This document shows, one piece after another, positions 15,126-38,295 of a DNA stretch of 64,000 nucleotides (position 1 is the first letter of the stretch; each line of letters starts with the position of its first letter). The position numbers were made by a program, and so were the translations under genes. The stretch is taken from NCBI GenBank assembly GCA_948144175.1, contig CANXME010002463.1, forward strand, positions 1,325,001 through 1,389,000, given 5' to 3'. This DNA is from Closterium sp. NIES-65 (lineage: Eukaryota; Streptophyta; Zygnematophyceae; Desmidiales; Closteriaceae). The notes under the pieces were generated by a model that made no database searches, had not been told where the DNA came from, and saw only the letters and a program-made list of their open reading frames with translations.

Positions 15126-17296
15126 CCCCTGGCAATGCTGGCAGGCGGGTGTGTTTGTGGCACTGGTAGCAGGCAACTCGTGGCCTCCCTCTCCTACGCA
15201 TGATGTGGGGACGCTCGAAAACGTTGCTCCGTGGTACCTGACAGTGGGAGCAACGAAAGTTGAGAGGAAACCGTTGTTGAGAAAGTGACAGACACACAGT
15301 GCGGCGCAATTTAAGTTGCGAGAGATTTCTTTGTTGAACGGAAGAGGTGTGCTGATGAAGACGCTTCGTGTGACGGGGTAAAGGTGTGCTGTAAGGAAAC
15401 TACTTCTCCATGGCTTGGGGTATGGGATGGATGGAGCTTATGGGAGTGAGTGAGTTGCACCTCTTAAAAGCGACTCAGAACCCCTCTATATCCCCCTTGC
15501 TCCCCTCCCTCAATGCATCCCTCTCTCCCTTCCCACAGCACCATTGGTCGACACGGTGTGGCAAAGCTGATCCTAGGGCACGGTGTGGCAAAGCTGATCC
15601 TGGGGTACGGTGTGGAGTCTACTTTTAAGCTCGCTCTACTTTTTTATTCTTAAAATTAGGCATGGTGTGGCTCTTAGGGGAGTGAGCTTTGGAGGCACCG
15701 AGTGGAGGAGGAGCCATGCAGGACACGAAGGCACACAGCCAGTTACTCCCTTCCCTGCCCTCATCCCGCTCCCTCCCTCCCTCTTCTCCCTTCCCATCTT
15801 CCGCTCCTCCCCTGCCCTCTCACAGCACCATTGGTCGGCAGTACCTTGCAAAGCTGATCCTGGGGAATGGGGAGGAGGTGAGGGGAGTGAGCTTCGGAGG
15901 CACCGCCGCACAGACGGTCAATAAAGTGCTCCTGCCGGCTTCCGCTGCTGTCCGAGCAGGCGCGTCTGCTGCTGATGTGAGTCACACGCATTTATCACAA
16001 GGTGACTTTGAGTCGAGTCACAGGTCAATAAATTCGAATCCCCATCAGCACATTCCAAGCATCCTCTCTTTTGCCCTCCACCTGTTTGCATCGTTCCCCC
16101 TCTGATGATCCCCCAGGCTGATGTGTGTGACTTTACTGCCATCGACCAAAGCCAATTGGCTGAGAAAATTATCGTGTGCACATAACAACCCTCCTCTCTC
16201 TCTCCTTTGCCCTGCGCTGCGCCTCTCTCCTTTACCCTTTTTATGACGCCAGGCTGATGTGTGTGACTTCACTGCAATCGACCCAAGCAAATTGGCTGGG
16301 AAAATTATCGTCTGCACTTTGGAGCCATCTGTAGGAGTCCCCATTACCTTCCTTACTGCTTCCAAGGCAGCAGCGCTTGTCCTCCTTAGTGGCTCTCCCA
16401 ATACTGACAACATGGAGACGATTCCTTTCACCAGCCTGCCCGTCCTGTTCCTCACCAACGCCCAGGGCGGGCAGGTGAACAATTACCTGGAGCAGACAGC
16501 CAATCCCGTGGCGACACTTACCGAAGTCATTACCACAAATTCCTCCAACGACCCCCAAATGACTAAGTTCTCTTCCACCGGACCAACCGTAAACCCATCC
16601 TGGTTTCCAGTCCCTTCCTCCTTCGCAACCAACGACATCTTAAAGCCAGACATAGTAGGTCCGGGGTTCCAGCTCTGGTCGGCGTACCGAGGCAAGAGCG
16701 CAGCTCCGGCAGCCACCGAACCTCCCATGTTTGAGTGCATTTCGGGTACCTCCATGGCTACACCACATCTCGCCGGAATCGCGGCGCTAGTAATCCAGAA
16801 GAATCCGCAATGATGACTACAGCATCTACAGTAAATAATGCCGGCCAACCAATCAAACGCGCAAATGGGGACGTGGCTACTCCGTGGGATTACGGCTCGG
16901 GGCAGGTCGACCCGTCGAGAATTATAGACCCCGGATTAACTCTCACCTCTGGGTTTAACGATTATGTGAATTTTCTCGCGAGCCGAAATCTCCAGCAGAC
17001 CAAGCATGCGTTTCCGGGGCTGAAGGGGATTCGAACACTGGAGCCGTGGAATCTCAACCGTCCAACGATCTCGATCTCACGGCTGTCCGGCCGCGGAAAG
17101 ACGATTTTGCGCACAGTTTGGAACGTGTTTGACCAGCCGTCGACGTACACTGTGCAGGTTCGGGTGCCGACGAACGTGCAGGTTCGGGTGCCGCCGAGCC
17201 GGTTTACCGTTGGTCCGGGAAAGGTGCAGCGCATCACGATGGTTTTCAAGGCAAGGAAGCTTGTGAGGTCGTTTCTGTTTGGGTCGGTTAGATTGG

Positions 17297-18229
17297 GATG
17301 TTCATACGGCGCGGCTCGGGAAAAACCCCGCCCACGCCTTGGGATGCACGGAGCGCGGAGAAATCGCGGGGAGCGTGGGGCGAAGTCGGCCACCTAGGAT
17401 CCCACCAGGTTTGGACCTAGCGCGGCCCTGCGTGGCTGAGTGAAACCCACCAGGCTGCCACCGAAAGCTCCGCAGCCCCCAGAAAACCGAAGGAACCCAC
17501 CTCGTTCTTACGCGCCGATGCATGCGCGACTCGGCAGAAAACGAACGCGATTGGTCGGTAACATTGACGAGCGGGACATCCCGCGCATGCAACCGCGAGT
17601 TCGCGACACGAAAGGAGTGCTACTACTGGTTGTGCTCTCTTGCAACTTATCGCGAACAAAATTCGCACAAGCATAGGTTCGTTAACCCGCACAGCGAGAT
17701 CCGGTTCGGTTACAGCTGGCGCGATCTGGTAGGCTCCATGCCAGCTGACACGTGCCGCAATTTGAACGAGCCACACAGCTGTCGCCGTTTCGTCGATGCG
17801 CGATCGCGGTAACGTGTCACGCACGTCCACGCAGTGTCCGGTCATTACGCCGAGCACGCCCACAGTTTCCATTTTCCGATCGCCAGTTGCACACCAAGCT
17901 CTACCCCCTCACGACCCACTGGGATACACCAGACACCAGTATCGCGGTCGCGTTGTGTGCCGCGCTAGAATTTCCGCGAGCACATCGGTCGCGAGGCAGA
18001 CGCGTCTAACTCACACCCGGGTGGACAACTAGTGACCGCGCATCATGTTGACGCACGCTGTGAATACGAGTAGGTGCAATCTCGCACGCCGCATGCATAC
18101 CGTGAATCGCGTTGCGGCGCCAATACTTCACGACTCAATCAATGCTTCGGGCAACACAACCGCGCATCAAATCCATAATGCTGAACCACCTACCGCTCCC
18201 GTGCATGGGGTGAACGCGCTCAACCCCAC
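17297..18229. other. Left end of the tyrosine-recombinase element, non-coding
   Basis: No convincing gene is seen. It presumably contains the recombinase promoter and 5' UTR. A second frame (18045-18443) overlaps the chosen recombinase start and reads like low-complexity protein, so the true N-terminus may lie here, with a frameshift or intron near 18330-18400. The stretch at about 17540-17560 (gcgattggtcgg) resembles the right-end repeat at 34848-34858. Confidence 0.4.
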
Positions 18230-21200
18230 ATGGAGCACCCCATACGTGCAGCCACTGGTTTTTGGGTCCCGGACTCCCACGTTTCACCCACAGCAACTGG
18301 TCAACGGGCTCCACCTAGCACCGCGGCCACAAATACCGTTTGCGGCAGCAGCGGTTGGTTACAGAATCAACCGGGTAATGCGGTCGCGTCCCCGTCCGTG
18401 CCCAGTAGCCAGCTCTTTGGGATGCCCGTGCGTGGCTTCGTAGGGTCGCAGTACTCGAACGTGGGATTCAGGTACGGGTACATCGGCGTTCAACCAGACC
18501 CCATGGTGCACGCATCCGCATCTGTTGCGACGCCTCCTGTCGCGCCGTCAACACCATTCTCCAGCGCGATTCATCCGGAAAGCCAGCCAGCAGTGCAAGC
18601 CCCGCCAGAAGCATTAGTTGTCGGTTTGGACACACAGGCGCGAACAGACGGCCCATCATCGAACGCGGTTGCCGGTGGTTTAGGGCGTGCGGTGAATGGT
18701 GAACCGGGGGTGAATGCAAGTGCGCGTGCACATTCGCCGCCAATATGGAACGTCAACTCACTGTTGCTCGAAAACCCCGACGTCCACATCCGCACCCCCG
18801 CGCATCCGACTGTAGCGTACGCGACTGGTGTAGGTGGGCAATCACAGGGGAACGCGGGGAACGCGGGGCGTGGAGCGGGTGCAAGCGGAAACGCGGTAAG
18901 GGGAAGAGGGACGGGTGCGAGAGGGAACGCGGGAGGAGGGACAGGGGAGAGAGGGAACGCGGCTAGAGGGAGAGGTGCGAGACGAAGGGATGGGAGAGCG
19001 ATCGCGGGACGTGGGACAGGTGCTGGAACAAACGAGTATAGTGCAAACGGCCAGGGAGCGCATGGGGTGACACATAACGGCGGCCGGGGTAGCGGTGTTA
19101 ACGCAAACGGCGGGTCAGGTAATGGGCCAGTTAATAGACCGCGTATAAAGAGGCGGAGAGTCGATGTAGTGCCGCACACGGCACGCAATGGCTCCCGGGA
19201 GGGGAGCGAGGGGACAAGCGATGAGGATGACGAGGACGACGCGTACGATGCGGACGATAGTTGGAATGACGATGACGAAAACTACCTAACCAACTCGCTG
19301 TCCGCGCTCAACGAGGAGGAGGCGGAAGACAACGAACGGGTGCGGGGTACGCGGAGGGACATTGAGGTCCCTATCGCAGATTGGAACAGGCTAGGTGTGG
19401 ACGACACGCCGGCCGCGAAACGAGAGATGTGTTACGGAATCCTCTACGGTGTCTCTGAGGCCACGCTGAAGAAGTATCGCGGTTGGGCCAACGAGTACAA
19501 GCGGTTCATGGCTCACGAGCTGCCTAAACTGGACGCGGGTAGGTTTGGTGATGAGGCCGCGCTGAGAAACGCGAACCCCGACGAGATTGGGGCCGCGCTC
19601 GAACAGAACATGGGTGGTGACTGGAAGATGGCGGAGAGCGACGAGCAGTGGTTCCACGGCCCTGAGACGAATCCGTGGCGCTTACGCAAATACGTGACCT
19701 TCCTCGCAAACGAGACAGTCGCGCAGGCGGACAGGATGGCCACACTCAAGCGGCCGCAGAAGACCTTGAAGAAGAGACGCCAGTGCACTCCGGCAATGCT
19801 GATGGGGCGTCTCAAGGCTTTGAACCTGCTCATCAAGCTGGACGGGGCCATCTTCAGGAAGCCCGTTCTGAACCTGCTGCGCGACTTTGCGGAGTGTCGC
19901 ATCTGGGTCCGCGTTCAAGTACGCGACCAATACAAGCGGTTTATCGCGTAAGTATACGTTCTCAGTGAACGCGTTTAATGCCTGACAATCCCGCGTCCAC
20001 TAACACCCGCACTATCGTCCCAATCCATGCGCAGGGAACACATGGATCGCCATCGGGGCACGGCCGCGGACACGTACACCCCGGACGAGTTCAAGCATAT
20101 GATGCGGAAGACCAGCATGGACGCGATCTTGATCAGCTTCACACTAGCCAAGAAAGCATACACGCAGGCAATGCATCGCGACCTTTGCATCCGGACGATG
20201 ACCGTGCTCGGTCATCACACTCTGGCCCGCGGATGCACGATCAGAAACCTGCAGCTGCCAGACATGATGATGTGGAAGCTAGGCGCAAAATCGGAGACCG
20301 ATCCAGATAGAAACGCGTTCATGTTTGTTTGCGCGTGCAGGACGGGCAAGACAAACAAGGACTTCTCGCTCAACTACATATCTGCTGTGAGGCACATAGA
20401 TTGGACGCTGTGCGCGGTCGGAGCCACGCTGCTGTGGCTGCACTGGGTGTACGACTTGGTTCCCATCCTCTATGGGGACATAGCCCCCCCTCTCGACTTC
20501 ACGGAACCCTCCACGTGGTACGATCAATACCTGTTCTTCCCCCTTCGCGCGAGCAACGAGAAGCAAATACCGCCCACGACTCATCACGACTGGGCGGCGA
20601 AAATTCTCCAGGACGCGGGAATCACATGCTCGCATGCGGTACACGCGACCAGGGCTGGGGGGGCGCAGCACGCATCCGCGGACGGAATGCCTTCGGATCA
20701 GCTGGCGAGGCTGGGGGGTTGGCGCTTCATTGACGTGATGACTAAGCACTACCTCACAACCATTCCAAGGGAGGCCGTGCTGCTGAAGGCGGGTTTCATC
20801 GGGGTTGACGGTGACTACTTCCTGGGTCGCGCAACTGTTCCGGTCAGCGATAAGCTGGATGAGCTACTGAGGAAGCACATTTTCCCATGGGCCGCCACGG
20901 ACAAAGGACAGCAACAGGTATGTGTAGTCCGCGCATACGCGACCGCGAGCATCTTACATACCACTCTGGCACCGCGTTCACTGCCTTGTTGTTTTATTGT
21001 CACAATGCAAGGATTACAACCGCAGGATGGTGAAAACGCAGAAGCCGGAGAAGCAGGACACCACGGGGCTAAACATACTGAAGGAACAGGATGGGGACGC
21101 TAGGATGGCGGTCGCGCAAGACCTGGCGATGTATTACATCCACCAGCCGCGACACCCGTACGTGGTCAACAACCCGCTCTGCCAGACGGAGGAATTTGCG

Positions 21201-22210
21201 TCGTGGGCTGCAGATGTCTCATTGGCAAATCAACTCGCCATAGTACAGCGCAACACACCTACACTGACCCAGCCCGCAGTAAGTACTGAATGGTCGCGTT
21301 ATGTTTCTTCCGTGATGTCAGTGCCAAACCATAACAAGCTCGCGGTCGCTTTTTGTCCATGCAGGAGGTGAGTACCAAAATGGACGCGCAGAACCAAGTG
21401 ACCGTCCTCACTGAGTACTTGACTCGTTCACAAGCGGACAACACCAGACTGGGCCTAGAGTTGGTCGCGACTCATAAACGGGTGAAAGAGCTGGAGGGGC
21501 TGCTGGAGGATCGCGATCGGAAACTGGCCGAGAAGGACGAGCGCGTGAATGATTTGGAGGCCCAGCTGTCGCGGCTCACCGTGAGCAGCTCAGGGCCGAC
21601 CGCGGTTCCGAACTAGGCAACCACTCCTGGAGCCGCGGCCGCGTCGACCAATGCCACACCTCCCACCGAGCAGGGGACGCGGAAGAAACCCGCAGCGCCA
21701 ACCAGGGAACAGACGATTCGGGAAGCGATCGTCCTTCCATGGGTCAACGCCACCAAACCGTCAGACGGATGGAAGCTGTACAAGACAATGCACCCGCTGA
21801 TCCTCGAGAGTCCAGAGTCGCTTCTGGCCCAACCCCGCGGCGCAGTTACGCGAATGGCCGCGCTCATTGGGGAGGAGGGAGGCGGCCAGAACGCGATAAA
21901 CCGTGTTAAGCGAATCATGAACTTCATCGCCCACAGGGTGGAGCAAGGAGACGACATCGCGGTAGTGCTCGACAAGCTCGACCTCATGTCAAGTGCTGTG
22001 GGCATGTCGGATGTATCGGAAGGGATCGCGGTAAAGAAGAAGAGTGTTGACCTGGAACTGAGCCAGCTCAAGAAGGGTTCTCCGGTGGAGGTGCAGTTGC
22101 GTGTGAAATGGATGCTTGTTCGCGACCGTCTCATCAATGCCTCTCTTCCCGCTTCTGAGTTCACGGTCGCGTGGCCCCAGTACTGTGCGCTGATGCCAGA
22201 CTTGCAGTAA
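18230..22210 (+). CDS. Crypton-type tyrosine recombinase, four exons, one in-frame TAG
   Basis: Exons are 18230-19947, 20035-20917, 21012-21278 and 21365-21616, with canonical gtaagt/gtatgt donors and cag/aag acceptors that keep phase. The N-terminal 370 residues are Gly/Asn/Ala-rich with an acidic patch (19205-19270). The recombinase core has a box-I-like LARGCTIRNLQLPD (about 20224), HATR (His 20642, Arg 20651), Trp 20720 and a Tyr nucleophile candidate at 20750-20752 (KHYLTTIP). DYFLGRA then leads to IFPW, a pattern seen in Ndc10-like proteins. A coiled coil follows (about 21400-21590). The frame stops at TAG 21614-21616 but stays open in the same frame to 22210, encoding a helical segment (LPWVNATKPSDGWKLYKTMH...) placed like the GCR1_C domain of fungal Cryptons. 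The start is uncertain. Confidence 0.75.
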
Positions 22211-22717
22211 ATGGATTGACCCCGCTGTTGTTCGTCTTCATATCACCGTCTTCGGGTGCGATGTTATGGGTCCCTATAATCGACCGCGAGTGTTGTTTTT
22301 TTGCGCGAATATTTTGCTGATTTACATCGCGGCCGTGGTGATCGCGGGCTGTTGTTGTTCCGCGGTCAGATAGTGCTGATTTACATCGCGGCCGTGGTGA
22401 TCGCGGGCTGCTGTTGCCTAATGTACATAGATTGTTCGCGTCGTAGTGTGTACAATGATAATGTGTGGGAATACCTGAGACGAATGCAGATTACCACTAA
22501 AATGGCACACGCGCAAACACACGCACCCACTGAATCCTACAAACCTTCACATATTGTTCCAAATGTCAACACTAGGTTCTCACGCGCACACGCACACGCA
22601 CACACAAACACACCCACACACACACACGATTTACTACAGGCACCAGCACAATCCACCGCGAGTAGAACTCAAGCATGGCGGACAGGCTGTGCACATGCTA
22701 CGCGATACTACACGCAC
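22211..22717. other. Convergent intergenic region of the recombinase element
   Basis: This lies between the 3' ends of the two element genes. It contains a 36-bp direct repeat (22316-22351 and 22375-22410, containing acatcgcggccgtggtgatc) and an ACAC-rich microsatellite (22584-22627). No coding frame is supported. Confidence 0.6.
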
Positions 22718-25700
22718 TCAAGTGCGCTTCTTCAGACGATCCTTGGGCAGGGCAAGGTACAAACCCAAGGACTCCATCTGCTTCCCTGCCACCGAGCAGT
22801 TGCACCAGGTGATGATAACGTCCACCGTTTCGCGGGCGGCCAACTCAATGTGCCTGAGATCGCGAGACTTTGCAACGACCTCGCTCACGACTCCGGACAC
22901 GATCGCGGCGGCGACCGCCTTCGGGTCCGCGACAACCTGTGGCTCATCTTCCTCGCGGCGATTGCGCTTCCGCACCGCATTGATGACGTACGCGGATACT
23001 ACGGGGAAGAGACGGCTTCGCTCTCCATAGCAACCAGCAGCACGCGCGGCCAGGTTTCCATTATCCGCCGCGGCAGTGACGTTAGAACCGCGAGTGACCT
23101 CCCACACCATTGCAATGGCGCATGCGATCGCTCCCGCGTAGTCCGTCGGCTCCACGTCGCCGAGATCCGCTTCTTCTACTGCAGCCTCCTTGCCTACCAC
23201 CGCGGCCCATGCAATCACGTTGGTGGTGTGCATTCCGGGCTTGGTAAGCCCGCGATAGGAATCGAACATGCGTTGCCACCTGCCACGCAGTGAGTTGGAG
23301 CGGCCAGAACATGATAACATACCAAACCGTATGAACGCACTAGATGATGGTGGATTGGCACAGCTCACCTGTCCTTGCTTGCCACGAGGTTGCGGTAGTG
23401 CATGGTGATTAAGAGGCCCGTATGTAACCCCTCGGCGATGGACAGGTCCGCGGCCCACTCTCGGATCTGCTTCTGGCTCAGGTTCAGCCCGGGGTCGACC
23501 TTCCCGTCGTATGGATACATCGCGATCGCGGTCTTGTACTGCAGGTCTTCGCGGTCGCCGTGTCCGAGCCATCGCTTCTTCCCCCCCATATGGGGTTCAG
23601 AAACCAATCCTGGCCCGCCCCTGGGTGGAGCGCGGATGCCGCAGCCCTTGCGCTTGGGGCCGGTGTCACCATGTCCTCCCGTTGTGCCACTTTCCACGAT
23701 CACGGGGTCTCCTTCTTGCCCGCTCGCGCTCTCTCCGCCGCTATAAATATCGACCGCGACCTCCCCATCCTTCTCTCATCCGTCGCCCGCCTCGACCCAC
23801 CTGCTCACTAGACCCTCCAGCTCCTCATCCGCATCGTCCTCGTCGATCGTGTACACGGGTGGAGTGGGCAACTTCTTGCCACCCCGTCCGCGTTTCTCCG
23901 CCTTGCCCTCGACCGAGGCCGCGATAGGACTTGCAGATGCCAGTGCGCTATGCATATGTCCCGCGGTGATTGCAGCACGAGCGGGTGCGAGCGTGGTCTG
24001 CCTGCCCTCTGCCGCAGCACCCACCGCGGACTGGACCTCACGCCTCGAGGCCAGCGAACGCGCAACAGCCGGCGCCTCTCCATCCTCCGCCTTACCCTTG
24101 CCCCGCCCCACAGTACTTGTCACTGACGCGGTTGCCCCGGCAGGGCCCGGTGGTTTGGGTGCAGCTTCTCCAGGTGGGATGGAGCGCGAGCTCGAACCCG
24201 GTTGACCAGTCGGTGCTGCACCTCGCGATGCAGCGCCCCACTTCTGCTTCAGCATGTCCTGCACGCTCGGATTGCGCACCGCGGCCGCTGCCTGGGGACC
24301 TCTCTGCCTCTTCGCCCCCCGTTGATTCTCCGCCTTCGCACCCGCTGCCCTCTTTCCATGCTCTGCATCCCCGGGCTCGGCAATCTCCGTCGCGGCCGTT
24401 CCTTCATTATCCGTGCGCGGAGGGGGGGCTCCTCCAACGAGCGCGATGAGGGTGTGCAACGCGTTCGTGACCCCGCTGGTGGTGATTGCCCGCTCTGCTG
24501 TCGCGGAGACCGCGGTCGACATGTTGTCGATCTTCCGCGCAACCTCGTCCGTCAGCTTCTTCTGAGCGACTTCCATGGAGTCTGTCACCACCCCCTGCAG
24601 CTGTCCCAGCCTCGCGTCCACTCGCCCCAGCACCACCGCCTCCTGGTTACGGGTATCGACCAGGGCCGCCCTTTCCTGCGCGATCGCCCTCGCCTCCTTC
24701 TCCAACACCCGAACCGCATTAGCAAGCGCGGACGCAAGCTCCTCAGAGCCCACGACCGCGACCCCACCAACCCCCGACTCCTGGCGTTTCTTCAGCCGTG
24801 CGTTCTCTTCGGCCAGATTTGCAAGCCTGCAGTCGAGCTGCAGGATCTCGGCAGCAAGCTTATGCGATGGCAACGAGGACAGGGACGCGTAATCACGCGG
24901 ACCTGTCACGGGACTCTTGCCCGCGACCTCACCACTCGGGCCCGCGCTTCCAGCACCAGGGGCCAAGTGCTGCGCGAGGTGCTTGATGCTCTTGCCGGAT
25001 GTAGCGGGCCTGCTGGATGCCGCGGCCGCTACCACATGAGCCTCCGCCTCCTCCTCGCTCGACTCCTCCCCCTCACGCGCAACAGCGCGGTCAGCCTCAT
25101 CGCGGGTTGCACCCTTAGTCGCGGTATCCTCGGCCCCTTCGTCATCAGCGTGGACCTTCGTCCCCCCCCGAGCACCTCCGCCATTTGAAACACCAGCGGC
25201 ACCTGTGAGAGCGAGAACACCATGGTCAGCAACCTGCGCACCCGTAGCCTCTTTATGCACATTCCCCGTTTCAGCACCTTCAGCCTCACCGCCGTGCATG
25301 GGTCGCGTCAAGTCCACGCTCAAGTTGAACGCGAGCTCTTCGGCGGTGTGGTACGCCTCGTGCCGCAGTGCATTCAGAGTCTTCGCGGTTGGCCTCGAGA
25401 ATTGCGGCCCAGATCCACTGGCGGCGACCGCGTCCAACTGGGCAAGGATCTTCTCGAACGCGAACAGACAAGCGATGTTGCCGCAGGAGCCCTTCAATGA
25501 CGTCGCGTCCTGGAAAACATTACATGGGGTTTGTTAGCACCACTGCAACTATTGGCGGTCATCGAGAACACGAAAACAACACAGACGTACCAGATCCAAC
25601 AGACGCTCGGGATCCTTAAGCTGGCGGGAGCGGGTGCACTGAATGGAGCCGCGCGCAAAATCCTCGTCGACGCGACCCTGAAACTACCTGCCCAAAAGCA

Positions 25701-26557
25701 CATACATATCCACGCGAACGCACGGTTAGTGACATGAGCCTCGGAGCGGAAATGAACGTGGTACTGATGACAAACCAGAACGCGGTACTCACTCCACAAT
25801 CGCATCAGCCGCGGTGACGTGTTCCGCACCACCAGTGGGAATAGCAACGCGAACGAACCGCTTGTTCCACGTCTCGTCACCGTCAAGCGACAGGTGGTCG
25901 GGGTGAAGCAGAATGAGCATGCTCGCGTTCGAGCTCTTCTTGTCGACCACGTCCCTGAACGTGCCATTGACGACCGCGTTAAACCACTTAAACGAGTGCA
26001 ATCCCTGTACAAGTGAACACTCCCAATGAAAACTCACTCGGACCAGATGCAGAAAACCACCAGGCTGCACTCCATCAAACCGGCAAAGGCTTGGTCCGCT
26101 TCATCGCGACCCGCGACTATTTCCGCGACAACACCGCTCGTCACTATTCGGACGTGCTCATGCACCTCCTTCTCCAGATACCTCCGGACAATCACGCTGT
26201 GCGGGACGGTGTAAAACAAGGCGGCAAAAGCTCAAACATCAACAACGCGACCTAAAAGCACAGTGGAGGTATGCCGCGGCCTGCACTGCCCACTAGTAAC
26301 TATCGCTGACATGTCGCGAACAGCCTAAGCACCGCGACAATAACCAACGCGTGCACACTAGAGTCAGGGAATGGAACGCATGGATCTCACCCGGTGACAA
26401 AGTCGAACAGACGGGCCGTGAGAGGATGCTTATCCTCTGCGAGCAGCTTCCACCGTTCGGGGGGGAGGTCCACCGTGGTTCCCGCAACAGAGATGATGGC
26501 CGGACAGGAGGCGGCCTCCTTCGAGCCAGCTCTAAGCGCCTTCATTTCGCGGTTCAT
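22718..26557 (-). CDS. Large unknown protein of the recombinase element, multi-exon, one in-frame TGA
   Basis: Suggested start ATG at 26557-26555 (MNREMKALRAG). Exons lie near 26557-26392, 26196-26039, 25995-25795, 25700-25597, 25513-23365 and 23289-22718, with GT/AG borders. Phase is good between exons 1 and 2, but the exon 2/3 border is unresolved. The N-terminal half contains DFVTGVIVRRYLEKEV and LHPDHLSLDGDETWNKRF; no family was recognised. The middle is Ala/Gly/Glu-rich with a coiled coil (about 24870-24500). The first long frame ends at TGA 23778-23776, but the same frame continues without a stop into the next exon block (IREWAADLSIAEG, then RWQRMFDSYRGL, spaced like a Myb/SANT-type fold). 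Hence one gene broken by one nonsense codon (CGA to TGA would do it) is likelier than two genes. Its role in transposition is unknown. Confidence 0.6.
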
Positions 26558-27398
26558 TACTGGTTACGACCGCAAAAGCGCGACCAAAGGAACGGTGTAT
26601 CTAGGACGAAGCGTACGCGAAACAGTGCTCGCGTGTATCTAGTACGAACGGTTCGCGAATCTGTGCTCACGGCAGAAAATGAGAGCTACGCTAGACGCTA
26701 CCAAGCGCGAACGCGGTCAGACAGAGTCTCTGCTAGCACTAGGCGACGAGGACCTCAATGGGGAACGGGCGAGCAGGAAGAAAACAAGATGTAAAGACGG
26801 ATAACGAAAATGAGCACCAGGTGCCCGTACCGAGAACCTAAGAGTGGGCCGGGATGGAAACAAGAGCCGGCACTCGCGGTCACACTGCGCGGGCCTCTCA
26901 CCCAGCGGGGAGGTTCCGCAACATGCACGCTTGTGCATCCAACGTCCGCCACGTTGCACACCATCCGCGAGCCCCGTTCGGAGCGGGCTGCCAACTCCCG
27001 CGGAGAGAGAATTTTCCTCGTCGCGACCGCCGAGGTCCGAGGTCCGATCGGGCACACCAATTCGGGTCACCCGAATTAACAGTACACTCCGTTATATTAC
27101 ACGTAAACTCGCAACACGTTAGAGAGATTTATAAGGAAAAAAATAGGATTTATTTCGTTTGATCATTTCGTTCGATCTTTCGAATGGCGTACACTCCGCT
27201 CCGTACATTTAATCTTTCCGCGAACGATCGTTCGCGAGGGTCCTGCGAGTATTCCGACGCTCGTAAACGACGGCGATTCGCCGGCTCCATTTCCGTCGCT
27301 CCGAAACCGGCTCCCATTGGCCGAATCCGTTTCGGCCAGCCCGAACTGCCATTCTCACACGCGGATTCGCACGCGAAATGCTTCGCGAGGGTTCTCCC
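26558..27398. other. Upstream region of the unknown element gene
   Basis: No supported gene. It is the probable promoter side of the minus-strand gene. The last 100 bp (27296-27393) form one copy of a diverged repeat (cggctcccattggccgaatc). A second copy continues on the far side of copia-2 at 34836-34935 (cggctccgattggccggatc). Confidence 0.5.
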
Positions 27399-27529
27399 TG
27401 TGAAACTATGAGCAGAGGAATGAATTGACTAGGTCAGAGTTGGGTACAAATACAACCCTAGCAAACTGTACCCCATATGTGCTACCCCACTATAGCCTAC
27501 AAACATGCATCAGCTATAATAATCTGACA
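27399..27529 (-). repeat. 3' LTR of copia-2
   Basis: 131 bp, identical to 34686-34816. On the minus strand it begins TGTCAG and ends TTCACA, as in copia-1. Confidence 0.95.
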
Positions 27530-27733
27530 CACCCCCATAGGCAAAGTGGGGGAGAACAAGGGGTCACAAGACCAGTCAAGCAAAGCAAAACAAGCTCAGG
27601 GTGGATCACAAAGTCACCACACAGTCCGAGCACAAGAGCAAGGCCAGAGGCCAGTTCACATGCAGGAGTAAAGACATATATATAAAACTAGACAAGCAAG
27701 AGCAGGTATATATATGTCAAAGTACAAGTAAAG

Positions 27734-30700
27734 TCAAGAAGAGAGCAAGTGAGGCAAGACAGGTACAAGACCCAGCTGGGTACAAAAGCGCTGATGGTCG
27801 CAAGGCGCAAGTGCCTTGGTGAACACATCAGCAGTGTTGGCCTCAGAGGCCACGTAAGCAAGTCGCAACTGACCACGCTGCTGCAGCTCACGAGCAAGGA
27901 AGTAGCGGAGAGCAATGTGCTTCGTTCTGTGCTCCAAGCGCTGCTCTCGACACAAGGCCAACATGGCCTTGTTGTCTACGTACAGCACTGGAGGAGAACG
28001 AGGCAGCTCTCCAAGGTCAGTCAGCAGGTAGGTGAGCCAGCGAAGCTCCTGTGCAGCCATGGCCCCGGCGTAGATCTCAGCCTCACAACTGGAGCCGAGA
28101 ACCGAAGACGAGCGAGTAGACCGCCACGAGACAGAGCCGGAACCAAGGCTGAAGGTGTAACCCTGTGACGACCGCTGCGTAGCCTGGTCGTCAGCCCAAG
28201 AAGCGTCTGCGTGCCCAGTAAGGACCACTGGACTCCGCCCTCCAAGCACTAGCCCCATGCCCGACGTACTGCACAGGTAGCGCAATACCCTCTTCGCTGC
28301 AGCCATGTGCTCTGGTCGGTGTCTCCCAGGAGCAACATAGCGTGCAAGGATGCTCAGAGGGTATGCAAGGTCAGGTCGAGTGCAGGTCATCAGGTACATG
28401 AGGCAGCCAACAAGCTCTGCATACGGACCACTCGACTCTACGGACTCATCCGAAGGCAGAGCTGAGAGTGAGTGGCGAGTAGGCAGAGGAGTGGCCTGAG
28501 GCGAGGAGTACGTGAAGCCGAAGCGCTGAAGGACCTGCTGCACCATGTGTGACTGAGTCAGGGTAATGGTGCGGCGTGCTCTGTCCCGAGTGATCTGCAA
28601 GCCAAGGTAGCTGCGCAGTTCACCCAGGTCTGTGCACGTGTGTCTCTTCAGCAGCTCGGACTTCACGTAGGCGAGTCCAGCAGTGTCCGCTGTGGCAAAG
28701 ACCAAGTCGTCGACGTACACGAGGATGTAGAACGGCGGCAGGGAAGTGTCGGTGCGAAGAAACAGCGACGGGTCAGCAGTAGAAGGAGCAAACCCAAGAG
28801 CCGCAAGCGTAGTCCTCAGTGTGTCGTGCCACTCACGCGGTGCCTGGCGGAGACCGTAGACTGGCCGTCGGAGGCTCCACTGGGTGCCAGGAGGGAAAGT
28901 CCCAGTGAAGCCAGGCGGACGGCGCAGCCAGATCTCCTCGTGCAGGCTACCCTGCAGGAACGCAGTGCTGAAGTCGAGAGAGTGAAGCTCGTAGTCGCGC
29001 TGAGCGGCAATGTGCAGCAGCACCCGAAGAGTGGTCATCTTCGGGGTGGGAGAGAAGGTCTGAAAGTAGTCAACTCCCTGCCGCTGACTGAAGCCACGAG
29101 CCACGTAACGCGCCTTGAAGACAGGCGGCGAGCCCGGCGGCCGCTTCACCCTGAAGATCCACATGCCACTGACGATGTTCGCCCCAGGAGGGGGAACCGC
29201 GTCAACGTAGGTGCCTGTGGACTTCCAGGAAGCCATCTCTGCATCCATAGCTGCCTGCCACTGAGAGGAGTAGGGACCCTCTACGGCCTCCGCGTAAGAA
29301 CGCGGAGTCGGGATGTCTAGTGCATCCGGGTCTCCCTCAGGGGCTAGCAGTACAGACGCGAGACGAGGTGAAGCAGCGGCTAGACACTGGAACTCCTCCT
29401 GCCTGTCCTCTAGGACGTCCGTGCCAAGGGCACACTCACCCCCGACGGACGGAGGACAGGCGGACTCAGACTCAGCGACAAGACGAGCAGCGTAGTCTAG
29501 ACGACAGCGCGCAGCAAAGTCGACAAGCTCAGTGACAAGGGCAGACGCAGCAGACGACTCGAAGGAAGGGTCAGTGACAGCAGTAGCAAGGAGACGCGTG
29601 ACAGTAGGACTGGCAGCACGAAGAGAGTCCGACTCCGGGTCGGCAAGAGCAGGAAGAGAGGAAGCAGGAGGAGAAGGCAAAGGGGCACGCAGAGGAGCAG
29701 TGGACGGACGCAGTGACATCCGGTGCGTGCCAGGGACAGGAGGAGGACGCTGACGCGACCCGCGACCACTAGCGCGCTCAGTACGAACAGGCGACGCAGG
29801 ACGAGACGCAGGCTCACGACGCTCAATAAGACCTCCAGTCGGACCAGCGTAGGGAGAAGGAGCAGGCAAAGGGGAGGCAGGCTGTAGCTGTGGCTGTGAC
29901 CGGACAGGCTGCGGACCCTCTAAGGAAGGAGGAGGAGGTGTAAGACCAAGAACCTGCTGCAGGAGCGGAACGAAGTACGGTCGAGGCCGCGCGGCGACGC
30001 CAGAAACAGCAGGAACAGCACCAGCACCCCCGGCAGGAGCACCCACTCCAGCAGCACCTCCAGCAGAACCACCAGAAGCTCCAGAACCTCCAGCAGCAGC
30101 ACCAGGAGCACCGTCAGTCGGACCACCAACCGCAGGCTCAGCGCCAACGTCCTCAGCAGGACCAGCTCCAGGAGAACACTCAGACCCAGCAGTTCCAGCA
30201 CCCACAGGACGAGCACCGCCAGGTCGCGTGGCAGCAGCGCCCTCCGCAGCCGAAGAACCACCAGCACCAGCGGCACGCCTCCAGCGCCGGGCAAACCACT
30301 CACGTAGCTCCTGTGGAGAGAGCGGCTCCCGGTGAGACGAAGCACCCCCAGGCACAGCACCTCCAGGCTCGGCACCTCCCGGCTCAGCACCCCCAGGCTC
30401 AGTACCCCCAGACACAGCACCCCCAGGCACAGCACCCCCAGGCTCAGCACCCCCAGGCTCAGCACCCCCAGGCCCAGCACCCCCAGACTCCGCACCCCCA
30501 GGCTCAGCACCCCTAGACTCCGCACCCCCAGGCTCAGCTCCCGCAGCAGCACCGGAGTCACCAGTGACCTCGACAGGCTCGACCGCGTCTACCTGAGACA
30601 CACCTGAAGGGGCAGGACCCTGAGGGGGGAGGGGGACTACTGGGGGGGGACCTGGTACCAAGAAGAGGGGGGGTGGGGGGAGGGACGGAGTGCGGTAGGG

Positions 30701-31414
30701 GAAGAGGCGGTAGTAGGGTACCGACTCGTCGAACGTGACGTCCTGGGAGGACAGAACACGTCGAGAGGTGGGGTGGTAAAACTGCCACCCAGGGGCGTCG
30801 GGGGGGAACCCGAGGAAGACGCAGGGAGAAGCACGAGGGGACAGCTTGTCCGCAGACAGGTCGCGAACAAACGCCCGAGATCCCCAGACCCGGAACGCCG
30901 ACGCATCGCCAACCTTCCCCGTCCACAACAGAGCTGGGGAGGTCTCCGGTCGAGAGACCCTGGGGTGGAGGTTGATCTGGTGCGCAGCGTACCTGACCGC
31001 AAACGGCCACAGAAAATGGGGAGCAGCCGCATGCATCATGGACGTACGAGCGACGTCCATGACCATGCCAATGCGGCGCTCAGCGATCCCATTCTGCTGT
31101 GGTGAGTCCGGAAGCGTGAAGGTCTGACGGATGCCTCGCACACGACAGTAGGTACTCAGGAGGGCCGAGGAGAACTCTCCGCCTCTGTCCGAGTGCAGAC
31201 GCAAGACAGGGAAGTCAGAGCCAAAGCTTCTCCGAAGCTGAAGACGAGCTGCGCGGATCCAGTCGATCAACACCTGAGTGACCTCACCCTTGCTGCGCAA
31301 GGGGAAGACTGTGGTGTAACGCGAGTAGTCGTCAACGACTAGCAGGAAGTAGCGCTCCTGACCCTGTCCACGGACGCGGGCTGGGCCCCACACGTCCATG
31401 TGAAGCGTCTGCAA
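27734..31414 (-). CDS. Copia-2 integrase core, reverse transcriptase and RNase H
   Basis: A frame of 1,226 codons begins at MQTLHMDVWGP, the first integrase aspartate, and includes HSDRGGEF, NGIAERRIG, YVDDLVFA and the RNase H motifs GHADASWADD and VDNKAM. It is the in-frame continuation of the upstream gag-protease frame past the TAG at 31438-31436; the two lie in the same phase with no shift. The Met is simply the first after the stop and is not necessarily used. A long Pro/Ala/Gly-rich spacer with GGAEPGGA repeats separates integrase from reverse transcriptase. Confidence 0.9.
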   Translation of the reverse strand: MQTLHMDVWGPARVRGQGQERYFLLVVDDYSRYTTVFPLRSKGEVTQVLIDWIRAARLQLRRSFGSDFPVLRLHSDRGGEFSSALLSTYCRVRGIRQTFTLPDSPQQNGIAERRIGMVMDVARTSMMHAAAPHFLWPFAVRYAAHQINLHPRVSRPETSPALLWTGKVGDASAFRVWGSRAFVRDLSADKLSPRASPCVFLGFPPDAPGWQFYHPTSRRVLSSQDVTFDESVPYYRLFPYRTPSLPPPPLFLVPGPPPVVPLPPQGPAPSGVSQVDAVEPVEVTGDSGAAAGAEPGGAESRGAEPGGAESGGAGPGGAEPGGAEPGGAVPGGAVSGGTEPGGAEPGGAEPGGAVPGGASSHREPLSPQELREWFARRWRRAAGAGGSSAAEGAAATRPGGARPVGAGTAGSECSPGAGPAEDVGAEPAVGGPTDGAPGAAAGGSGASGGSAGGAAGVGAPAGGAGAVPAVSGVAARPRPYFVPLLQQVLGLTPPPPSLEGPQPVRSQPQLQPASPLPAPSPYAGPTGGLIERREPASRPASPVRTERASGRGSRQRPPPVPGTHRMSLRPSTAPLRAPLPSPPASSLPALADPESDSLRAASPTVTRLLATAVTDPSFESSAASALVTELVDFAARCRLDYAARLVAESESACPPSVGGECALGTDVLEDRQEEFQCLAAASPRLASVLLAPEGDPDALDIPTPRSYAEAVEGPYSSQWQAAMDAEMASWKSTGTYVDAVPPPGANIVSGMWIFRVKRPPGSPPVFKARYVARGFSQRQGVDYFQTFSPTPKMTTLRVLLHIAAQRDYELHSLDFSTAFLQGSLHEEIWLRRPPGFTGTFPPGTQWSLRRPVYGLRQAPREWHDTLRTTLAALGFAPSTADPSLFLRTDTSLPPFYILVYVDDLVFATADTAGLAYVKSELLKRHTCTDLGELRSYLGLQITRDRARRTITLTQSHMVQQVLQRFGFTYSSPQATPLPTRHSLSALPSDESVESSGPYAELVGCLMYLMTCTRPDLAYPLSILARYVAPGRHRPEHMAAAKRVLRYLCSTSGMGLVLGGRSPVVLTGHADASWADDQATQRSSQGYTFSLGSGSVSWRSTRSSSVLGSSCEAEIYAGAMAAQELRWLTYLLTDLGELPRSPPVLYVDNKAMLALCREQRLEHRTKHIALRYFLARELQQRGQLRLAYVASEANTADVFTKALAPCDHQRFCTQLGLVPVLPHLLSS

Positions 31415-31435
31415 CGGGGCCTCTGTCGGAGGAAA

Positions 31436-33685
31436 CTAGGAGGAGTGAGGGGCAGCACGCTGGCGCCCCTCGACACAGGGGACACAGGCAGGGCCAGGGC
31501 CCGGAGGAAGGGGAGGGAGGGACCGGGGAAGACCAGACACAAGGACCCGCGAGGCCATGCCTCTGAGCCGAAGCAGAGAGGGGTGGCCAAGGCGGTGGTG
31601 CCAGAGGAGGGTCTCGTGAGACAGACGACGACACGAACAAGGGGCAGACTCAGGACCAGACCTGGACGCTGCAGCAAACACCTGACCAGACGAAGGGGCC
31701 CTACCAGACGTAGTACCTGGAGGAGAAGCAGTGGTCAGTGTGTACAGGCTCGACCCCGGCCGACGTGTAAACGTAGCCAGGTGGCGACCTGTATCCGCCT
31801 CCGTACAGTGGGTCACCCGCTGACGAGCAGGGGTGAACTGGTGGACACCTGCATCCTGGAGGTCAGCACCACTCACCAAGTTCGTCGAGAACGAGGGGAG
31901 GTAGAGACCAGTCAGGGTGCCAGAGGGGGCCGCCGGACACGGGAGGACAGTGGAGAAGCGAGACAGGACAGGCCCCCCAGAGGGGTCCGCCAGGGACACC
32001 GCAACAGGCCGACTCAGCGGCGTGAGAGTGGTGCGGTCCCTAAAGAAGGAGCGAGACGCTCCAGAGTCAAGGGTGAAGGTGTGAGAGGCCGAAGCCGACA
32101 CAGTACCTGAGAGGGCGGACTCACCAGTACCTGAAAGCACAGACGCACTGGCACCTAGAGCAGCAGCCTCACTAGTACCTGACGCGGCAGTACCAATGCC
32201 CGGGTCGGGCGGGAAACACCGGTAACAGTCATCCTCATCACTACCAGTCACAGCATACATAGCAGAGAGAATAGCATCAAAATCAAGATCATAAATAGCT
32301 ACACCAGCCCTAGACAGCTCTCCCCAGCGGGGGATCTCAGCGGCCTCCGGAAACTGCTGACGCCAGGCGTCGGTCAGGCGGCCAAAGCAGCGACGGGCTG
32401 TGTGGGCGCCTCCACACCTCTCCCCTGCACGGTCACCAGTGCGAAGAACGTAGGGGCAGGGACCAAGCGCACCACCGCGCTGACGCTGCAAGTACCACTC
32501 ACGGAGCTGCTGAGGGCCGGGGACGGTGCGAGAGCGCTGCTGCTGCTGCGGCTGCTGCTGCTGTGGCTGCTGCTGCTGCTGCTGCTGGCGCTGACCACCC
32601 CCAGAGCTGCTCCGCTGGGACGAGCCATTCCGACCCCCTCCTCCACCGCCACCCCCGCCTCCACCGCCACCCCCGTCGCCACCGCCACCTCCCCCACCAG
32701 GACCGTCGCTCCCACCGCTCCCACCGCCTCCTCCGCTACCACCTCCGCCGCCACCTCCGCCTCCACCGCCGCCACTACTACCTCCACTCCCGCCACCACC
32801 CCCCCCGCCACCCCCACTCCCCCCTCCACCCCCACCGCCTCCTCCACCGCCCCCTCTGGCTCCACCCGCTCCCTTGCCCCCCTTGCCCTTGCCAGTGCGG
32901 CGTCTGCCACTGGGGGCAGACGCCGCGCCGACCGACTCAAAACCAACGAGGTCGGCCGCAGCGGCAGAGGCGACAGAGGGCAGCAGGGGGGAGGGACCAC
33001 ACCCCTCAAAGATGGGGGTGCGAGGGTCACCCCGAGAGGCCCCTACAGCGACAATACTCTTCTCAGCCGCTAGCAGGGACTCCTCAAGGAGGTCGACAGT
33101 GAGAGTGGTGGGACAGACAGAGAGAAACTGGTCCCTAACGACACGAAGGGACTCAGGAAGACGGGTGACGAGAAAGTAGAGAGTGATGTACATGGGAGGA
33201 GGGTTCGCAGCGCGGAACTCAGCAGGAAGGGCAGCGCGGTAGCGGGTGTCACTAGCGCGGAGGTGGGTAACGAGGTCAGCGACAGTGGGAAAGGAAGCGA
33301 GGTCAGGGAAGAGAAACGGTAGCATGAGGCGGCTAAGGGTAGCGGAGGAAGGGGAGGAGTAGCGCGCAACTACAGCGTCGTACAAGGCCTGAGCGGTCTT
33401 GCACTGACTAAAGTGGGCACGCTCAGAGGAAGGGAGGTGGCGACGCACAGCAAGACGTGCAGCAGCATCGCGGGTCGCCCACTTGGAGCGAACGGCAGAG
33501 TCAGCATCAGCAGGCGGGGCAGGGACAGCGCCAGAGACAAAGTCAAAGAGAGAGACCTCATCTACCGCATCACACAGTAAGTACAGCTGCAGATCCTCGA
33601 TCCAGACGGCAAAGTCAATGGCCCTCCCCTCAGCGTCAAAAGTGAGAACATTGGGGGTGGCCATAGCAGCAGCTGAAAGTCTCAC
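31436..33685 (-). CDS. Copia-2 Gag, protease and integrase zinc-binding part
   Basis: This frame of 749 codons has UBN2-type Gag, a Gly-rich tract (codons between about 32880 and 32640), the atypical Cys/His knuckle, the protease DSGASRSFF and HHRLGHPS...CVPC. It ends at TAG (31438-31436), where copia-1 has a His codon between PHSS and FPP. With readthrough the polyprotein would be about 1,976 codons. One stop in an otherwise intact frame, with identical LTRs, means either a very recent null or a functional stop; copia-1, which lacks it, favours the former. Confidence 0.9.
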   Translation of the reverse strand: MRLSAAAMATPNVLTFDAEGRAIDFAVWIEDLQLYLLCDAVDEVSLFDFVSGAVPAPPADADSAVRSKWATRDAAARLAVRRHLPSSERAHFSQCKTAQALYDAVVARYSSPSSATLSRLMLPFLFPDLASFPTVADLVTHLRASDTRYRAALPAEFRAANPPPMYITLYFLVTRLPESLRVVRDQFLSVCPTTLTVDLLEESLLAAEKSIVAVGASRGDPRTPIFEGCGPSPLLPSVASAAAADLVGFESVGAASAPSGRRRTGKGKGGKGAGGARGGGGGGGGGGGGSGGGGGGGGGSGGSSGGGGGGGGGGGGSGGGGGSGGSDGPGGGGGGGDGGGGGGGGGGGGGGRNGSSQRSSSGGGQRQQQQQQQPQQQQPQQQQRSRTVPGPQQLREWYLQRQRGGALGPCPYVLRTGDRAGERCGGAHTARRCFGRLTDAWRQQFPEAAEIPRWGELSRAGVAIYDLDFDAILSAMYAVTGSDEDDCYRCFPPDPGIGTAASGTSEAAALGASASVLSGTGESALSGTVSASASHTFTLDSGASRSFFRDRTTLTPLSRPVAVSLADPSGGPVLSRFSTVLPCPAAPSGTLTGLYLPSFSTNLVSGADLQDAGVHQFTPARQRVTHCTEADTGRHLATFTRRPGSSLYTLTTASPPGTTSGRAPSSGQVFAAASRSGPESAPCSCRRLSHETLLWHHRLGHPSLLRLRGMASRVLVSGLPRSLPPLPPGPGPACVPCVEGRQRAAPHSS

Positions 33686-34685
33686 CGGGATGGGAGAGTC
33701 GGGTAGGTCAGCAGCAGGCGGCTCGGGCTGCTCGTGCAGCTCAGGCGGCTCGGGCTGCTCAGGTACCGGGCGGCTCGGCTACTGCGGGGCGGCTCGGCTA
33801 CTGCGGGGCGGCTCGGCTGCTGCTGGGCGGCTCGGCTGCTGCTGGGCAGCTCGGCTGCTGCTGGGCGGCTCGGCTGCTGTTGGGCGGCTCGGCTGCTGCT
33901 GGGCGGCTCGGCTGCTGCTGGGCGGCTCGGCTGCTGCTGGGCGGCTCGGCTGCTGCTGGGCGGCTCGGCTGCAGTGCAGTGGCGGGGCCGGGACAAGGCC
34001 GGCGGTAGGGCCGGCGGTAGGGCCAAGTAGGAGCCGGCGGCGGGCCGAGTAGGAGGCCGGCGACGGGCCGAGTAGGAGGCCGGCGGCGGGGCCGAGTAGG
34101 AGCCGGCGGCGGGGCCGAGTAGGAGGCCGGCGGCGGGGCCGTGTAGGAGGCCGGCGGCGGGCCGAGTAGGAGGCCGGCGGCGGGCCAAGTAGGAGCCGGG
34201 GCCGGGCCGTGTAGGAGGCCGGCGGCGGGCCGTGTAGGAGGCCGGCGGCGGAGCCGAGTAGGAGCCGGCGGTGGGGCCGTGTAGGAGGCCGGCGGCGGGC
34301 CGAGTAGGAGGCCGGCGGCGGGCCGTGTAGGAGGCCGGTGGCGGGCCGAGTAGGAGGCCGGCGGCGGGCCGTGTAGGAGGCCGGCGGCGGGGCCGAGAAG
34401 GAGGCCGGCGCGGGGCCGCGTAAGGGGCCGAGTAGGAGCCGGCGGCCCAGGGCCGCGTAAGGGGCCGGCTCGGAGCCGCACAAGGGGCCGGCGCGGGGCC
34501 GCGTAGGAGCCGGCGGCGCAGGGCCGCGTAAGGGGCCAGCGCGGGGCCGCGTAAGGGGCAGGCGGCGGGGCCGCAGGGGAGAGGGCGACCCGAAGGGTCG
34601 CTAAAACAAAAAAGGGCGCGCCTCGGGGCGCGCTTCGGTGGGCCCAAAAAAAAATTCGGTCCTGGAGGGACCTAGCTCTATACCA
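33686..34685 (-). repeat. Leader of copia-2 with stem-loops and minisatellites
   Basis: The leader carries the primer-binding site (34675-34685), hairpins at 34616-34633 and 34585-34601, and then two arrays. One is a ggccggcggcgggccgagta type of 23-24 bp (about 34010-34560); the other is a gggcggctcggctgctgct type of 19 bp (33775-33975). Its length matches the copia-1 leader but the repeat units do not, so arrays in this position turn over quickly. Confidence 0.8.
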
Positions 34686-34816
34686 TGTGAAACTATGAGC
34701 AGAGGAATGAATTGACTAGGTCAGAGTTGGGTACAAATACAACCCTAGCAAACTGTACCCCATATGTGCTACCCCACTATAGCCTACAAACATGCATCAG
34801 CTATAATAATCTGACA
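34686..34816 (-). repeat. 5' LTR of copia-2
   Basis: 131 bp, identical to 27399-27529. The CTCCC target copy follows at 34817-34821. Confidence 0.95.
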
Positions 34817-34821
34817 CTCCC

Positions 34822-35200
34822 GAGGGACGGACCAGTCGGAAACGGCTCCGATTGGCCGGATCCGTCTCGGCGCGCCGGGGTTTGGCCCTCGCCCTCGGAT
34901 TGGAGAGCGAGGGGTTTCGCGAGGGGTTTCGCGAGCCAGGGCTGGGCCCGGGGGGGGGCCCGGGGTTGGGACCACGCTGCGTGGCGCTGGCATGGCCCGG
35001 GCTCGGCGCGGGACCACCCCGCCAGCTCGCTCCGCCGCCCGGATCTCGCTAGGGACCTGCATGCGGGCGGGGGACTCCCTCTCGCGTGCGATTCCCAGCT
35101 GGGGGTCGGGACAGCCCGGGCATCGGCGTGCGACCCTGGTGGAAACGGGTTCCCACCAGGAGGGGGCCCTGCTGAATCGAAAGCCACTAGGGCCCGGATG
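34822..35200. other. Right end of the recombinase element, non-coding
   Basis: This GC-rich segment continues the host sequence interrupted by copia-2. It contains a diverged copy of the repeat at 27296-27393, with cgattggccgg and cggattggagag inside it. It ends at ggcccggatg, directly before the resumed subtilase exon. No gene was seen. Confidence 0.5.
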
Positions 35201-35400
35201 GACTGGTGGATAAGCATGGGCATGTAGTTAATATGCCAGTTGTACTGCATAATGCATTGTTGTCGGGTAACAAAAGAGAAGTAATGGTAGGCTGGCAGCC
35301 TTGTTGGGTGGTGGAAGGAGCATGTGGTAGACATTCCAGTGCAATGTGCCGGAATGGAGCTGCGCTGGAGAAGGTAAAACCCCGAGGTCCATAGCTTCCA
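35201..35400 (+). pseudogene. Displaced 3' end of subtilase A with 3' UTR
   Basis: From 35204 the + frame reads LVDKHGHVVNMPVVL, matching the C-terminal LVDEHGHAVKMPIAL of subtilase C. The following 35285-35345 (ctggcagccttgttgggtgg and onward) matches the 3' UTR of subtilase C on the other strand near 59585-59640. This is the missing tail of subtilase A, moved 17.9 kb away by the insertion. The stop seen in C is not at the same place here, another sign of decay. Confidence 0.88.
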
Positions 35401-35985: not shown

Positions 35986-36456
35986 GGTGGGGTTGATGCA
36001 TGGGGTTGATGCATGGGGTTGATGGATGGGGTTGTTGCATGGGGTTGATGCATGGGGTTGATGCATGGGGTTGTTGCATGGGGTTGATGCATAGGGTTGA
36101 TGCATAGAGTTGATGCATGGGGTTGATGCATAGGGTTGATGCATGGGGTGGGGTTGATGCACGGGGTTGATGCATGGGGTTGATCCATGGGGTTGATTCA
36201 TGTGGTTGATGCATTGGGTTGATGCATGGGGTTGATGCATGGGGTTGATGCATGGGGTTAATGCATGGAATTGATTCATGGGGTTGATGCATGGGGATGA
36301 TGCATGGGGTTGATGCATGGGGTTGATGCATGGGGTTGATGCATGGGGTTGATGCATGGGGATGATAGATGGGGTTGATGCATGGGGTTGATGCATGGGG
36401 TTGATGCATGGGGTTGATGCAAGGGGTTGATGCATGGGGTTGATGCATAGGGTTGC
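35986..36456. repeat. 15-bp minisatellite (ggttgatgcatgggg)
   Basis: About 31 units with scattered substitutions and occasional length variants. Long minus-strand frames (HQPHASTPCIN repeats) arise only because 15 is a multiple of three. Confidence 0.95.
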
Positions 36457-38196: not shown

Positions 38197-38295
38197 CATG
38201 CACGACATGATCTACATGGTGTGGTTGCAGGAGGATCTAGTGGAGGGGGGTCATGGCCTCATGGTTGACGGCTATCTGCGACGGTCCTTGTGATC

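Follow-up and report, generated by a model that had tools for sequence, protein, structure and literature searches.

A probable Crypton-like tyrosine-recombinase transposon with a convergent second gene, inserted in a subtilase gene of Closterium sp. NIES-65

Crypton elements are usually small, and the captain protein of the fungal Starships belongs to DUF3435. As set out in the available passages of Kojima and Jurka (2011, PMC3212892), CryptonF, CryptonS, CryptonA and CryptonI elements carry a tyrosine recombinase and have neither reverse transcriptase nor terminal inverted repeats. The same passages (PMC3212892) give short (4-6 bp) direct repeats at the ends as the presumed recombination substrate, mention non-autonomous derivatives, and report a C48 peptidase as an additional gene in some oomycete CryptonF and some CryptonS elements. 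Here we describe an insert in a subtilase gene of Closterium sp. NIES-65, found in a stretch of 64,000 nucleotides (contig C2165:1325001-1389000, hereafter the window). The insert is very probably a Crypton-like tyrosine-recombinase DNA transposon with a conserved accessory gene. The element is multicopy, with fixed ends, empty sites and a preferred target core; its recombinase retains the catalytic residues, and it occurs in tandem arrays and as a deletion derivative. Its mobility is strongly supported.

Cryptons are not described in plants in the available part of a 2026 review (PMC13317346), a point relevant to novelty only if the host is a plant. Subtilases bearing an fn3_6 domain and the 125 AP2 matches listed in the genome point to a probable green-plant lineage. 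The text available from PMC11630846 calls Cryptons relatively rare and names them as a class, not placing them in plants, and the word Crypton is absent from the available part of PMC9033089. A search of open-access papers, with supplementary lists and repeat databases outside its scope, found no such element in plants.

Ends, copies and empty sites

The first-pass annotation had bounded the insert by GATTGG (17291-17296) and GACTGG (35201-35206). Both were seen in the window, and the copies whose ends were read share the ends of the element. The locus is laid out as follows.

16247..17293, + strand: host subtilase 5' of the insertion, Peptidase_S8 and fn3_6
17291..17296, + strand: left junction GAT-T-GG; host GAT, shared T, element GGGATGTT...
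17294..27398, + strand: left part of the element, up to the nested copia; colinear with other copies at 95-98% nucleotide identity
27399..34816, - strand: nested Ty1/copia retrotransposon; 131-bp long terminal repeats 100% identical, target duplication CTCCC
34817..35203, + strand: right part of the element, after the nested copia; starts with the copia target duplication CTCCC
35201..35206, + strand: right junction GAC-T-GG; element ...GGATGGAC, shared T, host GG
35204..35251, + strand: host subtilase 3' of the insertion, 48 bp; matches uninterrupted gene copies
59728..59966, - strand: uninterrupted subtilase paralog; 239 bp at 86%, ungapped across the insertion point

The copia at 27399-34816 is a later insertion, separate from the element. 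Subtracting it from 17294-35203 leaves 10,492 bp, or 10,487 bp once the second CTCCC copy is also subtracted, in line with the earlier estimate of about 10.5 kb and with tandem spacings of 10,423 and 10,422 bp elsewhere. Copies whose right end was reached lack the nested copia at this position, and the sole reverse transcriptase match lies in that copia. Upstream, a 1975-amino-acid open frame at 4249-10173, whose start resembles the gag of the nested copia by eye, is probably a second copia-type element.

Further copies were sought in the 874 Mb genome with the recombinase region (window 19979-21103) as DNA query. Among the 40 candidates scored of 70, at least 40 places including the window matched at 87-100% identity (41 matches, two being pieces of one copy), some of them allelic duplicates. 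Nine regions, some holding several copies, were fetched and compared with the window by BLAST. The match began at 17293/17294 in eight of these; in the ninth, on contig C2101, the left end lies farther away. It finished at 35204-35206 in five (C1769, C2363, C1967, C1883 and C1673) and stopped at 35171 in C2101 and C1798, and the right end was not reached in the stretches fetched from C1995 and C450. Separate searches for the left end (40 scored of 68 candidates) and the right end (40 scored of 98) supplied 26 further left and 30 further right ends, which were read at the junction. The left end shared among the copies read is T followed by GGGATGTTC (at greater length, T followed by GGGATGTTCATACGG), and the right end is GGATGGAC followed by T (at greater length, CCCGGATGGAC followed by T). 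Several older copies carry point differences at the left end (C2165b, C1739, C150, C170, C1541, C191) or the right end (C2101, C1930, C233, C1806, C637), and the T is missing from the left end of C1770. The expectation that further copies in this genome would share the same ends was thus borne out in those read. Terminal inverted repeats were not found: comparison of the first 300 bp with the last 390 bp gave, at best, an inverted match of 9 nucleotides (E 0.34).

The uninterrupted site proposed from the window also exists. Joined with a single T, the window flanks read ...GSVRLVDKHGHVVNMPVVL..., in a longer stretch ...FGSVRLVDKHGHVVNMPVVL, and the paralog at 59966-59728 reads GSVRLVDEHGHAVKMPIAL across the junction, resembling the joined flanks. 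On contig C1668 a syntenic subtilase cluster is uninterrupted at the insertion point (query 1-113 at 99%). The 1-kb left flank is 95% identical to C1668, and two further subtilase paralogs lie in the same order on both contigs. The paralog intervals on the window contig and C1668 are 42,485 versus 26,062 bp and 34,523 versus 18,018 bp, the second pair by subtraction; C1668 is shorter by 16.4-16.5 kb, and the composite insert measures 17.9 kb. The flank identity, the paralog order and the shorter intervals make it very probable that C1668 represents the other haplotype and that the insertion is polymorphic.

For other sites, empty counterparts were seen among repeat copies. On contig C1175 the target is an abundant repeat, and all 40 matches scored, of 2002 candidates, run across the junction; four empty copies were read, with GCACTAGCAAG unbroken (TTGCAC in three, ATGCAC in one). 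Matches across the junction were also obtained for C150 (eight), C2165b (three), C2357 (two) and C1739 (two), and one each was read for C150, C2165b and C2357. Empty counterparts are therefore available for 6 of the 12 sites at which both flanks were compared.

Across these 12 sites only the T is invariant. The first-pass annotation had described short direct repeats without inverted repeats; the lack of inverted repeats stands, and the 6-bp repeat of the window copy is not a fixed feature. C precedes the T in 11 of 12 sites (P 1.3e-6), G follows it in 10 (P 1e-4) and A in the remaining 2, and the second base before it is a purine in 10, the P values being one-sided binomial against flank composition at positions picked post hoc. 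The core of the element itself is GACTGG, and targets share 3 to 6 of its 6 letters. The target core is about RC-T-G, a pattern that fits strand exchange at a short core in which T is the sole strictly shared base.

Spread by segmental duplication or unequal exchange, with no recombinase-mediated insertion, would explain why some copies have common flanks (C2363/C1967, C1316/C975, C2357/C1879/C228, C150/C170 and C1766/C148/C2058/C2187) and why those on C450 share a spacer of about 308 bp. We consider it very improbable as the general explanation, since the flanks differ among the 12 sites while the ends are the same and the core is similar, and six of the sites have empty counterparts. Within the limits of these searches, the outcomes that the first-pass annotation had named as damaging to its claim did not occur: the copies did not end elsewhere, mobility was not lacking, and empty sites were present.

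The host locus has peculiarities of its own. The window subtilase is about 28 nucleotides shorter than the C1668:198449-199476 copy over the left flank (1000 versus 1028 nucleotides), and its open frame (16247-17293) changes near 16810; this allele therefore looks like a pseudogene in its own right, besides the insertion. Large minisatellites surround the subtilase cluster (window 13910-14951, 35988-36455, 36500-38197 and 11632-12415; units of 12, 13, 43 and 47 bp).

Two convergent genes

Gene 1 was resolved into four exons with GT-AG introns, placed by conserved sequence and by indel patterns across copies.

18045..19947, + strand: gene 1 exon 1; low-complexity N-terminus and start of the recombinase, placed by indel pattern; frameshift in the window copy
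20035..20917, + strand: gene 1 exon 2; tyrosine recombinase catalytic domain (R, K, HxxR, W, Y), NDC10_II
21012..21278, + strand: gene 1 exon 3; GT-AG introns, frame kept
21365..22208, + strand: gene 1 exon 4; coiled-coil-like stretch and conserved C-terminal domain; premature stop in the window copy

The earlier assignment to a Crypton/Ndc10-like recombinase was upheld by profile searches. Pfam NDC10_II matched the window frame 19979-21103 at E 1.4e-12 and the spliced C2363 protein at E 1.1e-13, over profile positions 12-316 of 317. The spliced frame is open over 1298-1302 amino acids in three of seven copies tested (C2363, C1798 and one C1769 copy). When recombinase exons of four families were aligned, NDC10_II matched all five sequences, Phage_integrase matched three weakly (best E 0.03), and the active-site R, K, H, R, W and Y were present in all five. 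The C-terminal domain is conserved across families and has no significant Pfam match. DUF3435 was not among the matches listed for gene 1 or the recombinase exons, and no stretch of viral contigs fits the recombinase-exon patterns in a search aimed at close relatives only.

GCR1_C was considered for gene 1 and rejected: it gave no match there, and the genomic match (one of four candidates) sits in another gene. That match, L097 2891-3838 (C1988:106592-106687), is a host frame with a GCR1_C-like domain at 29.2 bits, above the curated cut-off, and shows no match to the element profiles.

DIRS elements likewise use a tyrosine recombinase (passages of PMC3212892), and a retroelement of the DIRS/Ngaro kind whose reverse transcriptase is lost or hidden was considered as an alternative for the insert. 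In gene 1 and in gene 2 (the latter without its first exon), Pfam detected neither a reverse transcriptase nor a DDE transposase, the only reverse transcriptase being that of the nested copia, and the first intron of gene 1 is kept in all 12 matches compared. Such an identity is very improbable on these grounds.

Gene 2, convergent with gene 1, occupies the minus strand between about 26.2 kb and 22.72 kb.

25793..26004, - strand: gene 2 upstream exon, proposed by eye; first exon and start codon farther upstream
25591..25687, - strand: gene 2 upstream exon, splice sites by eye
23369..25509, - strand: gene 2 main exon; coiled-coil-like stretch and conserved segment (alignment A1); premature stop in the window copy
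22718..23279, - strand: gene 2 last exon

Its conserved segment spans about 100 amino acids (alignment A1), and gene 2 gave no significant match in Pfam, PHROGs or PDB; PDB searches overall returned nothing significant, the best being four matches at E 0.94-2.1. An AP2-like fold, suggested by eye from G.IR...RY(I/L)G, is unsupported by any significant profile match. An hhalign comparison of the segment with one AP2 sequence fell in register and was not significant (probability 0.5%, E 0.11). Pfam AP2 matched none of ten gene 2 members, and none of the 125 genomic AP2 matches listed (150 scored of 195 candidates) lay inside the fetched element stretches by eye.

The one large extra gene of the first-pass annotation is real: it is common to other families, and it is under purifying selection in the one pair tested (C2293/C1878). 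The codon-position signal inside the young family was too weak, and distant pairs were used instead. Our best guess, which we hold as evenly balanced, is that its product may be a DNA-binding or architectural partner, judging from position and conservation only.

Mosaic structure, tandem arrays and a possible mechanism

A protein search with the recombinase exon (133 scored of 727 candidates) recovered the window family, relatives at 72-79% identity and 74 matches at 40-42% identity, 71 of these free of stops. Six other-family loci were fetched (C1721, C106, C2293, C1878, C915 and C2251, the last a 72% relative); all six carry the gene 2 segment, which is only partial in C2251. Proximity to gene 2 was compared for the 74 matches at 40-42%, omitting the other 59 of 133 (window family and near relatives), against 150 gene 2 matches scored of 354 candidates with the C915 segment as query. 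Amongst the last 32 (40-41%), 28 have a convergent gene 2 match 2.3-3.0 kb away and none has one in the same orientation within 10 kb, the chance of a match within 10 kb being about 0.0009 for each. The two-gene layout with gene 2 convergent is not peculiar to the window copy and was found in every family sampled.

The two halves of the element differ in divergence. Compared in 300-bp steps, the window copy is 84-94% identical to C2314 up to 22093; identity is 62% in the step containing the end of gene 1 and falls to 39-57% past it. Between C2293 and C1878 the values are 96-99% as far as 6630, 92% in the corresponding step and 46-79% thereafter. BLAST boundaries fall at window 22198 (against C191) and at C2293 6885. 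For C2293/C1878 the synonymous divergence (dS) of 0.02-0.04 in gene 1 contrasts with 0.67-0.71 in gene 2; the ratios of nonsynonymous to synonymous divergence (dN/dS) are 0.31 and 0.66 for gene 1 and 0.44 and 0.39 for gene 2. The window/C2314 pair has dS of 0.22 in gene 1 versus 0.95 in gene 2. From the identity drop at the gene border and the dS contrast, the gene 2 half has a different history, and the elements are chimeras whose breakpoint lies close to where the two genes meet.

A Starship-like element, in which the recombinase mobilises gene 2 as dispensable cargo, would accommodate both the exchange of the gene 2 block as a unit and the presence in an array of deletion derivatives lacking an intact gene 2. 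This is unlikely, though less so than the alternatives above. One gene 2 family stands convergent to recombinases only 40-42% identical, and purifying selection in the pair tested points the same way; this recurrence and this selection suggest that gene 2 is a working part.

Tandem copies are joined head to tail with one core between them, the element-element junction reading GGATGGAC-T-GGGATG. Left ends on contig C1769 are spaced at 5940, 5942, 5969, 10423 and 10422 bp, and an element end precedes the first unit found. The short unit that was read carries an internal deletion of about 4.5 kb, which starts within the recombinase exon and extends to gene 2. The first two short units retain exon residues 1-171 and the third retains 1-241; because more of the recombinase exon is kept, the third carries a different deletion. 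Over the part compared, identity among the three 10.42-kb units is 99.7-99.8%. In other families, gene 2 matches that share an orientation are separated by 10,829-11,005 bp on C2133 (three), C1780, C1052 and C2261, and other close pairs are 4.7, 12.4 and 12.5 kb apart. Separately, C450:1102518-1180574 holds element ends with a repeated spacer of about 308 bp between them, a pattern that suggests segmental duplication of an array.

By analogy with Cryptons (passages of PMC3212892), the gene 1 recombinase would most likely excise the element as a circle with joined ends GGATGGAC-T-GGGATG. The short core of the circle would then recombine with a chromosomal RC-T-G site, without inverted repeats and with the shared T as the only target duplication. 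Junctions between elements recreate the core, so new copies could integrate beside old ones and give head-to-tail arrays; the arrays could be built by such re-integration or by unequal exchange. The gene 2 product may act with the recombinase on element DNA as an accessory protein, either architectural or a directionality factor, and recombination between elements swaps the gene 2 half as a block.

Several points weigh against the transposon interpretation or parts of it. We infer both the circular intermediate and catalysis, and the tandem arrays could have arisen by unequal crossing over. Gene 1 is open throughout in only three of seven copies, being broken in C1673, C1883, C450 and C1995, and the window copy is decayed in both genes: gene 1 has a frameshift as well as a premature stop, and gene 2 is likewise cut short by a stop. 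The role given to gene 2 draws on its position and conservation only, the AP2 likeness not being significant. Of the 42 recombinase matches at 41-42% identity, none has a gene 2 match among the 150 scored; both fetched members of the 42% group carry gene 2, and the gene 2 of C1721, read directly, is absent from the scored list. The match between C1668 and the window ends 48 bp right of the insertion, and C1668 could for that reason be a rearranged haplotype or a recent duplicate, not a simple allele. Empty-site matches for C2357 carry a gap of about 10 nucleotides, upstream of the junction in the one read, and those for C1739 are 80-81% identical with gaps and were left unread. For the remaining six of the 12 sites, the 40 candidates scored (of 929) included no uninterrupted match.

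A broader proposal is tentative, and we place it slightly short of an even call: the elements may form a new two-component tyrosine-recombinase superfamily, abundant in a plant-like genome, with an obligate second DNA-acting protein that is convergent and module-exchanged, and with arrays that grow by re-integration at the core of their own junctions. With its many candidates (727, of which 133 were scored), the two genes, a probable haplotype difference and exact empty sites, this genome allows direct tests of the recombination core, of whether a partner protein is needed and of how tandem arrays grow. The recombinases are candidates for new site-specific recombination tools.

Comparison with described systems

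NDC10_II, the family of Ndc10/CBF3, is the best match of gene 1 and nearly full-length. The yeast centromere protein Ndc10 has not kept an intact catalytic site (passages of PMC3212892), whereas gene 1 has the catalytic residues. The element resembles Starships in carrying a tyrosine recombinase gene inside a larger element. Starships, in the parts of the literature available, are giant and have many accessory genes; the element described here has a two-gene layout and an NDC10_II match, with no DUF3435 match listed. Unlike DIRS/Ngaro elements, its recombinase comes without a reverse transcriptase match.

The closest likeness is to Cryptons. Shared features are the R-H-R-Y residues, the lack of reverse transcriptase and DDE matches and of inverted repeats, the common ends and the empty sites. 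The GATTGG/GACTGG pair of the window copy also recalls the short direct repeats of Cryptons, although only the T is invariant over 12 sites. At the level of subgroups, the recombinase protein has no C-terminal GCR1_C match, unlike CryptonF, and the element ends in GGGATG and GGATGGAC, whereas most CryptonS have TATGG termini. Unlike Cryptons, the element is about 10.5 kb long and carries a convergent second gene of another, unrecognised kind. It also forms head-to-tail arrays, of which the passages of PMC3212892 contain none, and its second gene is exchanged between elements, giving them a mosaic structure.

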